NCBI GenBank assembly: GCA_016458225.1
Contig: JAEMGR010000014.1
Coordinates: forward strand, 1 to 64,000
Reading direction: 5' to 3'
DNA: 64,000 nt
From: Myxococcaceae bacterium JPH2
GTDB lineage: Bacteria > Myxococcota > Myxococcia > Myxococcales > Myxococcaceae
The notes beneath the pieces are model-generated. The model searched no databases. It was not told the DNA's origin and was given only the letters and a program-made list of their open reading frames with translations. Position 1 is the stretch's first letter. The number at the start of each line of letters is the position of its first letter. A program made the position numbers and the translations under genes. Shown piece by piece: positions 47,045 through 50,841 of this stretch.

Positions 47045-48112
47045 TCAGCGCAGCCGGCGGCACGCGGCGGTCTTCACCGCCAGGTGCACCCGCATCCCCT
47101 TCGTCAGCCCGAGCTCGTCAACGGAGACCTGGGTAAGCCGCACCACCCAGCGGTGTCCCGCCACCTCCACCGAGGCCGCGCACCCGCCCGGCCCCGCGGG
47201 CTCCAGCGCCGCCACCACGCCCGCCATCACGTTGCGCGCGGAGACACCCACCAGGGGCCCCGTGGACAGGAGGATGTCCTCGGCGGGGACCGCATAGGCC
47301 GCGCGCGCGCCTGTCACCACCCCAGGCCCGTCCGGCACCCACAGCGCCAGCTCCGGCGTCACCCGCAGCCGGGGGCCGTGGCCGTCGGGGCGCTCGAGCA
47401 CGCCCTCCAGGATGTTCTCCTCCGCGTCGCCCTCCGCCGCGAGCACGCCGCGCGCGGCCGAGCCCAGCACCGCGTCCGCCGGGCCCAGCGCGAGCGCCCG
47501 GCCGCCGTCCAGCAGCAGCGCCTCCCGCGCCAGCGCGCGCGCCTCGCCGAGCTGATGCGTGACGTAGAGCATGGGAACGCGCGCCTCATCGCGCACGCGC
47601 AGCAGGTACGGCAGCACGCGCTCCTTCAGCGCCACGTCCAGCGCGGCCAGGGGCTCATCCAGGAGCAAGAGGTCGGGCGCGCTCGCGAGCGCCCGCGCCA
47701 GGGCCACGCGCTGCTTCTCTCCTCCGGACAACGTGGCGGGATAGCGGCGCAGCAGCGGCTCCAGCTCCAGCAGGGCCAGCGCCTCGTCCACGCGCGCGCC
47801 CCGGCCACCGCGCGCGCCGAAGCGCACGTTCTGCTCCACGGAGAGGTGAGGGAAGAGCAGCGCGTCCTGCGGCACGTAGCCCATGCGCCGCGCCTCGGGG
47901 GGCAGGTCCACCCGCGCCGCGCTGTCCAGCAGCACCCGCCCACCCACCACCACCCGCCCCCGCGCGCCGCGACGCAGCCCGGCCAGCACCTCCAGCAGCG
48001 ACGTCTTCCCCGAGCCCGAGCGCCCCATCACCGCCACCGACGCCGAGGCGAAGCGCGCATCGACCTCCAGCGGGAAGCGCGCCAGCGGCAGGCGGAACGA
48101 CAGCGCCATCAT
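47045..48112 (-). CDS. modC: molybdate ABC transporter ATPase
   Basis: A 355-residue ABC ATPase. Walker A G-R-S-G-S-G-K-T is near residue 30, the Q-loop in Y-V-P-Q-D-A near 80, signature L-S-G-G-E-K-Q near 125, Walker B L-L-L-L-D-E-P near 147 and the switch His in Y-V-T-H-Q-L near 181. The C-terminal TOBE/Mop-like domain (V-S-A-R-N-V-M-A-G, K-G-M-R-V-H-L-A-V-K) is typical of ModC. Its ATG overlaps the modB stop (ATGA). With ModA and ModB it imports molybdate for Mo-cofactor enzymes. Confidence 0.93.
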   Translation of the reverse strand: MMALSFRLPLARFPLEVDARFASASVAVMGRSGSGKTSLLEVLAGLRRGARGRVVVGGRVLLDSAARVDLPPEARRMGYVPQDALLFPHLSVEQNVRFGARGGRGARVDEALALLELEPLLRRYPATLSGGEKQRVALARALASAPDLLLLDEPLAALDVALKERVLPYLLRVRDEARVPMLYVTHQLGEARALAREALLLDGGRALALGPADAVLGSAARGVLAAEGDAEENILEGVLERPDGHGPRLRVTPELALWVPDGPGVVTGARAAYAVPAEDILLSTGPLVGVSARNVMAGVVAALEPAGPGGCAASVEVAGHRWVVRLTQVSVDELGLTKGMRVHLAVKTAACRRLR

Positions 48113-48786
48113 GCGCGCACCCGCGCGCCGCGACGCCGCGACACGGCCTCGGCCACGTACATCGCGCCGAACGCGAGCAGCGCCGCCACGCCCGCCAACG
48201 TCAGCGCCTCGCCATCGCGCCCCATCTGCGTCCGCTGGAAGATGGCCAGCGACAACGTCTGCGTGCGCCCGGGGATGTTGCCCGCCACCAGCACCGTGGC
48301 GCCGAACTCACCGAGCGCGCGAGAGAACGCGAACAGCGTTCCGGTCAGCACGCCGCGCCAGGCGAGCGGCAGCGTGACGCGGAAGAACGCCCGCGCGCGC
48401 GTGTCCCCCAGCGTGCGCGCCACCGCCACCAACCGAGGGTCCACCTCCTCGAAGCCCGCGCGCGCCGAGCGCACCAGCAACGGGAACGCCATCACCGCGC
48501 CCGCCAGCACCACCGCCTTGGGCGTGAAGACGACGTCCACCCCCAGGCCATCCAGCAGTCTGCCCAACGGCGCATCGCGCGCGAGCACCTCCAAGAGCAC
48601 CAGCCCCACGGCCGTGGGCGGCAACACGAGCGGCAAGGCCAGCACCGTCTCCACCACGCCCTTGCCTGGGCCCCGCCACCGCGCCAGCGCGTACGCCGCC
48701 GCCACGCCGGGCGGCAGGATGAGCACGGTCGCGAGCGCGGCCACCGTCAGCGTGAACAGCACGAGCCCGGGCAGGCCCTCCGTCAC
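48109..48786 (-). CDS. modB: molybdate ABC transporter permease
   Basis: A 225-residue membrane protein with about five helices. The EAA loop region R-A-F-F-R-V-T-L-P-L-A-W-R-G-V-L-T-G near residue 145, followed by F-S-R-A-L-G-E-F-G-A-T, is the ModB signature. GTG at 48786 overlaps the modA stop as GTGA; no other start is possible without running into modA. Length matches ModB (~220-230). It forms the channel of the molybdate importer. Confidence 0.93.
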   Translation of the reverse strand: MTEGLPGLVLFTLTVAALATVLILPPGVAAAYALARWRGPGKGVVETVLALPLVLPPTAVGLVLLEVLARDAPLGRLLDGLGVDVVFTPKAVVLAGAVMAFPLLVRSARAGFEEVDPRLVAVARTLGDTRARAFFRVTLPLAWRGVLTGTLFAFSRALGEFGATVLVAGNIPGRTQTLSLAIFQRTQMGRDGEALTLAGVAALLAFGAMYVAEAVSRRRGARVRA

Positions 48787-49547
48787 GGCGACGACTTCCT
48801 CGCGCCACCCAGCACGACGAAGCCCAGGCGCGCGAACACCCGACGCGCGGGCTCCGTCTGCAGGAAGCGCACGAACGCGAGCCCCGCCTCCGGGCCCTTG
48901 CCCCCCGTCAGCGCCGCCACCGGGTACACGATGGCAGGCGTGTCCGCTTCCGGGACCGCGAAGGCCACGCGCACCTTCTTGGAGAGCGACGCGTCCGTCG
49001 CGTACACCACGCCCGCGTCCACCCGGCCCGCCTCCACCGCGGCCAGCGCGGCGCGCACATCGAGCGCGGGGATGACGCGAGGCTCCACCGCCCGCCACGC
49101 CCCCACCTTCTCCAGCCACGCTTTCGCGTACACTCCGGCGGGCACGCTGGTGGGGTCCGCCAGCACCACCCGAGACAAGCCCGCCAGGTCGGCCGCCGAG
49201 CGAGGCGCCGCGGCCTTCGCGTCCGCCGGCACCACCACCACCAACCGATTGGAGAGCAGGTCCACGCGAGCCCCCGCCCGCACGAGCCCCGCCTTCTGCA
49301 CGGACTCCAGCTTCGCCACGTCCGCGGAGAGGAAGGCATCCGCCGGAGCACCCGCCACAATCTGACGCGACAGGTCGCCCGACCCACCGAATGAGAAGGC
49401 GACCTCGTGCCCCGTCGCCCGAGTGAAGGCAGGGGCCAGCTCCTGGAGCGCGTCCTGCGTGCTGGCCGCGGCGAACACGAGCGCCCGCTCCGCTCGGGCG
49501 GGCAGCGTCACCAAGACCATCAGCGACACGAGCAGCAGGGCGCGCAT
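48783..49547 (-). CDS. modA: molybdate-binding periplasmic protein
   Basis: A 254-residue periplasmic binding protein. The signal peptide ends near residue 18 (P-A-R-A). F-A-A-A-S-T-Q-D-A-L near residue 27 gives oxyanion-contacting Ser/Thr, F-S-F-G-G-S-G-D-L near 50 is the second loop, and P-A-G-V-Y-A-K near 120 is a further ligand region. Start 49547 follows AGGAG. It captures molybdate (or tungstate) for ModBC. The gene is divergent from a MarR-type regulator, with a palindrome and hairpin in the 128-bp gap; no ModE-like regulator is present in the window. Confidence 0.93.
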   Translation of the reverse strand: MRALLLVSLMVLVTLPARAERALVFAAASTQDALQELAPAFTRATGHEVAFSFGGSGDLSRQIVAGAPADAFLSADVAKLESVQKAGLVRAGARVDLLSNRLVVVVPADAKAAAPRSAADLAGLSRVVLADPTSVPAGVYAKAWLEKVGAWRAVEPRVIPALDVRAALAAVEAGRVDAGVVYATDASLSKKVRVAFAVPEADTPAIVYPVAALTGGKGPEAGLAFVRFLQTEPARRVFARLGFVVLGGARKSSP

Positions 49548-49633: not shown

Positions 49634-49649
49634 GGCGGGTTGACCCGCC
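49634..49649. promoter_or_regulatory. inverted repeat GGCGGGT-TG-ACCCGCC
   Basis: A perfect 7-bp inverted repeat with a TG spacer. It contains TTGACC (49640-49645), which could be a -35 element for the MarR gene; TAAGGC 17 bp later is a weak -10. It may be an operator for the divergent genes. Confidence 0.4.
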
Positions 49650-49669
49650 CGGTGCCGGCCGCTAAGGCA

Positions 49670-49688
49670 TACTCCGTGTCACGGAATA
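49670..49688. promoter_or_regulatory. near-perfect palindrome over the MarR gene start
   Basis: TACTCCGTGTCACGGAATA pairs at 8 of 9 positions about a central T. It overlaps the GTG start codon at 49676. The size fits a MarR-type operator, and the location (divergent from modA) suggests autoregulation and possibly regulation of modABC. Confidence 0.6.
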
Positions 49689-50179
49689 CATACAAAGAGG
49701 AAGACGAGCCCGGCGGCGACATCCTGCGACTGCAGCAGCTGATGTTCTCGCTCGGCAGACGCCGCTCACTCCGTGACCCCATCGCCGCCACGTGCGAACA
49801 ACTCCAGTTCACCGCGCCGCAGGTCCACGCGCTGCTGTGGCTGGGACTGGACGGCGCGCTGACCATGGGTGAGCTGGCTCGGCGGCTCGGCGTCACGGAG
49901 AAGACGGTGACGGGCGTGGTCGACCGGCTGGAGCGCGAGGGCCAGATGCAGCGCGAGCGCAGCGCCTCCGACCGCCGCATCGTGCTCTGCCGGCTGACGC
50001 AGCAGGGGCAGCAGACCTATCAGCGGCTCGACCGCTTCATCCACCAGGCCATGGGCATGTTCCTGGGCATGCTCGACATGAGCGACCGCAAGGCGCTCTT
50101 CCGCATCCTGGAGAAGGTGCTGCGCCGGCTGGACGCGCAGGCGCTCGGTCCGGTGGCCAGCTCGCGCTCGGCCAGCTAG
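49676..50179 (+). CDS. MarR-family transcriptional regulator divergent from modABC
   Basis: A 167-residue winged-helix regulator starting at GTG 49676 in my reading. Helix 1 is D-I-L-R-L-Q-Q-L-M-F; the recognition part is G-E-L-A-R-R-L-G-V-T-E-K-T-V-T-G-V-V-D-R-L-E-R-E-G near residue 65-90; the wing is S-A-S-D-R-R-I-V-L-C-R-L-T. The start codon lies inside the palindrome; an in-frame TTG at 49640 is a less likely alternative. With a possible TTGACC/TAAGGC promoter the message could be leaderless. Its end overlaps the opposing YdcF gene by 4 bp. The ligand is unknown. Confidence 0.88.
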   Translation: MSRNTYKEEDEPGGDILRLQQLMFSLGRRRSLRDPIAATCEQLQFTAPQVHALLWLGLDGALTMGELARRLGVTEKTVTGVVDRLEREGQMQRERSASDRRIVLCRLTQQGQQTYQRLDRFIHQAMGMFLGMLDMSDRKALFRILEKVLRRLDAQALGPVASSRSAS

Positions 50180-50841
50180 TCGCGGGGTGACTCGGGCGCG
50201 CGCGCCAGCAACACACGCGGATGCAAGAGCAGCGCGATGGCCTCGCGCACGGTCCAGTACACGCGGTCCACCAGCGCCACGTTGCGCTCGGTGAGCAGCG
50301 CCGGGCTCGTGGCCACCTCCAGCCCCGCCAGCCGGAAGTACTGCCGCGCGCGCAGCAGGTGATACGGATCCGACACCACCACCACGCGCTTCGCGCCGAA
50401 TGCCCGCAGCAACTCAGCGCTGTGGCGCGCGTTCTGCTCGGTGGAGTGGCTCTCCTCCTCCAGCGTGATGGCCTCGGAGGGCACGCCCATCCGCATGGCG
50501 AGCGCCGCCATCACCCGCGCCTCCGACGGCGGGTTCACCCCCACGCCCCCTGAGAAGACGAAGCGCGGCGCCACGCCTTGCCGGTACAGCTCCACGGCCT
50601 TCTCCACGCGGGCCTGGAGCGGCCCCGAGGCGACGCCGCCAGGCAGCACCCGCGCGCCCAGCACCACCAGCGCGTCCGCGGGCTCGGCGCGCTCGCGCTG
50701 GCCGAAGCGATCCACCCACCACGCCAGCCCGAAGACGCCGCACGTCAGCACGCCCACGAGGGCGAGCAACCAGCGCGGGACAGGGCCTGTCTTGGGACGC
50801 AGGGCAAGAGGACGCACCCGCCGCACGCTAGCGTCGCGCAC
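50176..50841 (-). CDS. YdcF-family (DUF218) membrane protein
   Basis: A 221-residue protein with one membrane segment near residue 25-45 (W-L-L-A-L-V-G-V-L-T) and a DUF218 domain. Motifs: A-L-V-V-L-G-A-R-V near 60, F-V-F-S-G-G near 100, E-E-E-S-H-S-T-E-Q-N-A near 130 and V-V-S-D-P-Y-H-L-L-R-A-R near 160. The Glu/Asn and Asp/His motifs are the conserved DUF218 residues; E. coli members such as SanA and ElyC are linked to cell-envelope integrity. Substrate unknown. It converges with the MarR gene. Confidence 0.9.
   Translation of the reverse strand: MRDASVRRVRPLALRPKTGPVPRWLLALVGVLTCGVFGLAWWVDRFGQRERAEPADALVVLGARVLPGGVASGPLQARVEKAVELYRQGVAPRFVFSGGVGVNPPSEARVMAALAMRMGVPSEAITLEEESHSTEQNARHSAELLRAFGAKRVVVVSDPYHLLRARQYFRLAGLEVATSPALLTERNVALVDRVYWTVREAIALLLHPRVLLARAPESPRD

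Follow-up and report, generated by a model that had tools for sequence, protein, structure and literature searches.

The palindrome that covers the GTG start codon of a MarR-family gene next to modABC is probably the autoregulatory operator of an efflux-type MarR repressor, which stands as an orphan beside modABC and is most likely translated from a leaderless mRNA. This reading is drawn from sequence comparison of the window, by which we mean the whole stretch of 64,000 nucleotides analysed, with related loci of the same myxobacterial order. The molybdate connection suggested by the neighbouring genes did not receive support; the relatives of the MarR gene point to efflux pumps.

The MarR gene and the palindrome on its start codon

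The gene, its convergent neighbour and the palindromic site are the following:

49676..50179, plus strand: MarR-family regulator gene, 167 aa, GTG start, stop TAG (ORF; PF01047)
50176..50841, minus strand: DUF218 (ElyC-like) gene, convergent neighbour (PF02698, 112.3 bits)
49670-49688, no strand: 19-bp palindrome TACTCCGTG-T-CACGGAATA, 8/9 pairs, spanning the GTG at 49676-49678
49668-49690, no strand: putative 23-bp operator CATACTCCG-TGTCA-CGGAATACA, 14/18 to the family consensus

The protein scores 59.2 bits against the Pfam model PF01047 (cut-off 24.6) and thus belongs to the MarR family. Its nearest named relative is the MarR protein of Citreicoccus inhibens (96% identity), and its matches include entries named multidrug resistance operon repressor. 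It has no match to the ModE N-terminal domain or to Mop/TOBE domains and is not a ModE-type molybdate regulator.

The 19-bp near-perfect palindrome that the original prediction described is indeed present. It forms part of the 49668-49690 site, the family form of which is GATAnTCCG-N5-CGGAnTATC. The 64-kb window has 18 palindromes of this quality; 10 first-order Markov sequences gave 21.4 on average. Judged within the window alone the palindrome is not above chance, it is convincing through comparison with relatives. With up to 3 mismatches allowed, the 19-bp pattern was found at no further place in this genome. Control by a riboswitch was also considered and was rejected, since no Rfam family reached its gathering score within the window.

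Conservation of the site in related MarR loci

The search for MarR relatives covered 145 genomes of the order and gave some MarR match in 131. The comparison comprised 90 MarR loci, 30 of them returned automatically and 60 picked by hand (those scoring about 142 bits or more and some chosen from lower down). It must be noted that these loci are related to one another and that some loci of named relatives come from the same species as genomes already in the comparison; the counts given here refer to loci and should not be read as independent events. From the 90 loci themselves, L066 being a perfect example, the operator consensus was derived; the site of each locus was then the best-scoring place between -140 and +90 relative to the start, and the scores are therefore biased towards the consensus.

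The 23-bp site lies in frame over the start codon in 75 of the 90 loci, with 12-18 of the 18 consensus letters, and is absent in 15. This is the conserved palindromic site over the own promoter or start that is expected of a MarR autorepressor, and at the level of sequence comparison it bears out the predicted MarR-type operator over its own start codon. In a maximum-likelihood tree, from which one of two identical proteins had been removed, all 74 distinct site-bearing proteins formed one clade (support 100/98), and none of the 15 site-less proteins fell inside it. The families f3 (to which Anaeromyxobacter belongs) and f8 of the same order have site-bearing members too, and a locus of a more distant deltaproteobacterial MAG (L163) has the site at 15/18. 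The MAG locus L148 is without the site (10/18), and L158 is borderline (12/18).

The position of the start codon relative to the site is of two kinds: 57 loci have GTG at +8, whereas 17 have ATG and one has TTG at +11. Compared in this way, the start codon is shifted by one codon between the subclades and the palindrome has stayed put. The absence of an upstream in-frame start fixes the start codon in 23 loci; in L041, L043, L044, L047 and L053-L056 the GTG is the sole usable start, an in-frame stop lying upstream with no start codon between.

An operator-like palindrome that stands away from the MarR gene, GATGCTCCGGTGCACGGAATGTC (2 mismatches), was seen in an Anaeromyxobacter-type genome (G018:C1:2040263-2040285), and two other genomes of this type, G017 and G021, have similar sites. 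Two loci from records titled Comamonas sp. KCTC 72670 (L119, L147) are Myxococcus-type MarR loci; the corresponding genome, G107, shares its genus assignment with Myxococcus, and the Comamonas name looks wrong.

Promoter geometry and the predicted leaderless start

The elements upstream of the GTG are the following:

49640..49645, plus strand: -35 element TTGACC of the MarR promoter, position of TTGAC conserved
49663..49668, plus strand: probable -10 element TAAGGC, 17 bp after the -35, overlapping the operator by one base
49676, plus strand: predicted start of transcription, on the GTG or a few bases from it, from the -10/-35 geometry
49634..49649, no strand: perfect 7-bp inverted repeat GGCGGGT-TG-ACCCGCC around TTGACC, judged incidental

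TTGAC stands 35-38 nt before the GTG in 54 of the 57 GTG-type loci (at exactly 36 in 47) and is absent in 3; three loci of genus g3 (Archangium-type) have kept the site and lack TTGAC. In the 18 ATG/TTG loci it was found at 38-41 in 13, at 54 in one, and was absent in 4. The TAA at the place of the -10 element (49663 in the window) is conserved in the close loci (T 83, A 94, A 71%). With sigma-70-type promoter spacing, the -10/-35 geometry places the transcription start relative to the two elements. The conserved spacing of TTGAC and TAA before the GTG predicts a start at or near the start codon, i.e. an mRNA that is most likely leaderless, and the suggestion that transcription starts at the start codon is in keeping with this geometry to within a few bases. 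A simple promoter scan detected no E. coli-type consensus sigma-70 promoter here, and TAAGGC is not an E. coli-type -10. The AAGG at 49664-49667 could serve as a weak Shine-Dalgarno sequence; relatives read TAATGA or TAAGCC at the same place.

The inverted repeat, in which a possible -35 box had been noticed originally, fared less well than the palindrome. It is present and its TTGACC core is kept, but the repeat itself is not conserved: in the 47 loci with TTGAC at -36 the arms are 7 long in 1, 6 in 10, 5 in 2 and at most 3 in 34. Perfect 7+2+7 repeats number 10 in the 64-kb window versus 12.0 in Markov sequences. As an operator the repeat was rejected, because its arms are not conserved in relatives and the TTGACC core alone is kept.

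Efflux genes and a second site

In 17 of the 18 ATG/TTG-type loci, genes that match an outer-membrane efflux protein, HlyD or AcrB lie directly downstream of the MarR gene. The site-bearing MarR gene of the eighteenth locus heads an ExbB/ExbD cluster, not an efflux operon (L070:2475-3641). In the GTG branch, efflux genes were found downstream in none of the 11 cases tested (the gene in the window and 10 other loci); the MarR gene of the window has no co-directional OMF/MFP/RND genes directly downstream.

A 21-bp pattern with up to 2 mismatches occurs in this genome only in the 49668-49690 region and at C19:136764-136784 (in G000, L096:10764-10786), where it precedes an HlyD-AcrB-MarR operon. 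The half-sites at the two places are near-identical (ATAnTCCG/CGGAnTAT). The MarR paralogue encoded in this operon is 47% identical to the MarR protein of the window, and the two share the recognition-helix core KT[VI]TG..DRL. In all 22 named paralogue loci the site is kept at 15-16/18 just before TTGACA, in front of a conserved TTGACAGA. The same kind of comparison shows it to be a conserved site, the second of this genome, ahead of an efflux operon. The C19 site lies immediately upstream of TTGACAGACAG and is conserved in Myxococcus, Corallococcus and Citreicoccus. Its location upstream of the -35 is as compatible with activation as with repression, and agrees less well with simple repression. 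A wider regulon was not apparent in this genome: at 3 mismatches there were 16 matches versus 20 for a reversed-pattern control, and another pattern gave 6 versus 4, nothing was taken as above control.

It is possible, at a little less than even chance, that the orphan MarR protein also binds in trans to the site before the HlyD-AcrB-MarR operon, so that the MarR protein and its paralogue cross-regulate each other's genes. The near-identical half-sites, the absence of a third site within 2 mismatches, the common recognition-helix core and the conservation of the efflux-operon site in every named locus are consistent with such cross-regulation. On the other hand, the paralogue sits in the operon itself and is the simpler reader of its site, and in one genome (G076) the two sites differ: the efflux-operon site has diverged to 14/18, with both arms altered alike (CTG...CAG), and the site of the orphan MarR is unchanged. 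This divergence suggests that the paralogue may be the main reader of the efflux-operon site, which could be read by the orphan, the paralogue or both. Cross-regulation is compatible with the orphan being an autorepressor and is not opposed to it.

Alternative explanations

One could think that the palindrome is a mere by-product of a conserved start codon, a conserved promoter and a conserved N-terminal peptide (SRN or MRN), and that no protein binds to it. The right arm is part of the coding sequence, the left arm borders on the -10, and single palindromes of such quality are expected by chance, all of which would agree with this explanation. We nevertheless consider it very improbable. The Asn codon in the coding arm is the rare AAT in 54 of 54 cases, as compared with 5/50 outside the arm in these genes, and the Arg codon is CGG in 73/73 versus 403/1560 elsewhere, which points to constraint at the DNA level. 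The left arm matches the right one in the 75 loci, and sliding one arm by 1-6 positions lowers the pairing from 77% to 13-31% in the 19 far loci and from 71% to 6-42% in the 56 close loci. Furthermore, the start codon moved and the site stayed, and a like site, away from any start codon, precedes the efflux operon of the paralogue. Symmetric co-variation is weak as proof of a dyad constraint: the far loci have 7 co-varying cells, with 104 of 2000 shuffles reaching the observed pairing, and no co-varying cells were found in the close loci.

The other alternative, which the original prediction had favoured, is that the MarR protein controls modABC from the start-codon site in place of ModE and that its ligand is molybdate or a related signal. 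That the gene is divergent from modABC was correct, the neighbours match the respective models above cut-off:

48783..49547, minus strand: modA, divergent neighbour (TIGR01256, 170.5 bits, cut-off 62.5)
48109..48795, minus strand: modB, start approximate (TIGR02141, 202.8 bits, cut-off 182.6)
47045..48112, minus strand: modC (TIGR02142, 301.3 bits, cut-off 285.05)

The short intergenic space (128 bp) and the frequency of this arrangement would speak for such control: modA is the divergent gene in 48 of the 57 GTG-type loci, one is cut by the contig end and 8 have another neighbour. The part of the prediction that concerned ModE also held, in that none of 91 family genomes had ModE above the curated cut-off, the best match in this genome being 23.9 bits. 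The only clear ModE-like sequence in the 91 genomes is a partial N-terminal domain (L092; G087:C42:24328-24558; 73.8 bits, below the cut-off of 98.5). Control of molybdate uptake by the MarR protein is, however, unsupported. Five genomes (G045, G047, G048, G076, G078) have kept the MarR gene and the operator with no modA match at E <= 1e-20. These five are among the 8 genomes without the modA neighbour; of the other three, two have only a 31% modA match elsewhere, and in G042 a modA of 62% lies on a different contig, where the best site around it reaches no more than 11/18. Four loci of genus g7 (L043 and, by position, L044, L053 and L054) have a divergent neighbour other than modA, and in L043 the gene replacing modABC encodes a type III polyketide synthase with chalcone synthase domains (L043:2659-3780). 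No second operator-like site of at least 13/18 was found near modA, either in the linked loci between -140 and +90 relative to the marR start or at the unlinked modA genes. The operator's relatives are at efflux operons. The convergent DUF218 neighbour is widely kept too, so the linkage to modABC looks like general synteny. Because of the five genomes lacking modA and the lack of a site of at least 13/18 near modA, we rejected control of modABC as unsupported and regard it as unlikely. A possible link of a Burkholderia MarR protein to molybdate genes was not confirmed: a literature search on MftR and molybdate found nothing. In a search on MarR family, modABC and molybdate, the portions of the sources that were available contained no report of MarR control of mod, and one on MarR, molybdate transport and Burkholderia thailandensis had, judged by title, nothing on it.

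Proposed mechanism and significance

If the palindrome is an autoregulatory operator, as we prefer to think, RNA polymerase would recognise TTGACC (49640) and TAAGGC (49663) and initiate on the GTG (49676) or directly beside it. A MarR dimer bound to the 23-bp site, which would span the transcription start, would block initiation of its own gene, and a ligand would release the dimer and allow transcription. The right arm of the operator would double as the first codons of the MarR protein. By descent the family would be a regulator of tripartite (OMF-MFP-RND) efflux operons, as the efflux context of the relatives indicates, and the gene in the window a stand-alone copy beside modABC, whose clade appears to have lost the adjacent pump genes.

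A more far-reaching proposal, which we offer tentatively, is that this is an ancient myxobacterial MarR family with its operator in the first codons of a leaderless mRNA, one branch of which may have shed its pump and persists as a stand-alone autorepressor. The only other strong site in the genome being at the efflux operon of the paralogue, the two genes could form a cross-wired efflux circuit.

If true, one stretch of DNA would combine the start of transcription, the start codon, the N-terminal codons and the operator. Independently of that proposal, the gene illustrates clearly how the constraint that an operator puts on DNA can fix codons of its own probable reader protein. The comparison also yields an operator consensus, open to testing, for a MarR family found across the examined myxobacterial order, a predicted leaderless start, and a pointer to efflux rather than to molybdate.

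Comparison with known systems

ModE is the regulator of modABC. The MarR gene resembles it in adjoining modABC and differs from it in that the protein is without a ModE domain, there is no ModE-type gene at the cut-off in the genome, and control of mod is without support. MexR-like MarR repressors of RND efflux operons have a palindromic site at their own promoter and at the efflux promoter. The predicted arrangement here is like that of MexR-type repressors in having a palindromic site at the own promoter and at an efflux promoter; the two differ in where the site is, here over the start codon of an mRNA that is probably leaderless, and in the loss of the neighbouring pump genes from the clade of this gene.

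Literature searches on a MarR site overlapping the start codon (nothing relevant by title), on leaderless transcripts of Myxococcus xanthus (no start-site map, judged by title) and on MarR and efflux in M. xanthus (none on this gene by title, among the matches listed) gave no precedent by title. Among the matches listed for leaderless MarR autoregulation with an operator at the start codon was CrtR of Corynebacterium glutamicum, which, according to the available part of the paper, is a MarR-type regulator divergent from the crt operon, negatively autoregulated, and produced from a leaderless transcript (PMC5401885). The same part states that the CrtR promoter was not easily found and that a TTAA motif in the crtE promoter was required (PMC5401885). 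As far as that account goes, a divergent, autorepressed and leaderless MarR gene is a kind already known from CrtR (PMC5401885), and the gene in the window would be like it in being divergent from a metabolic operon, autorepressed and, by prediction, leaderless. It differs from CrtR, as described there, in that the site lies on the start codon and that it is efflux pumps, rather than the divergent operon, to which the relatives point.
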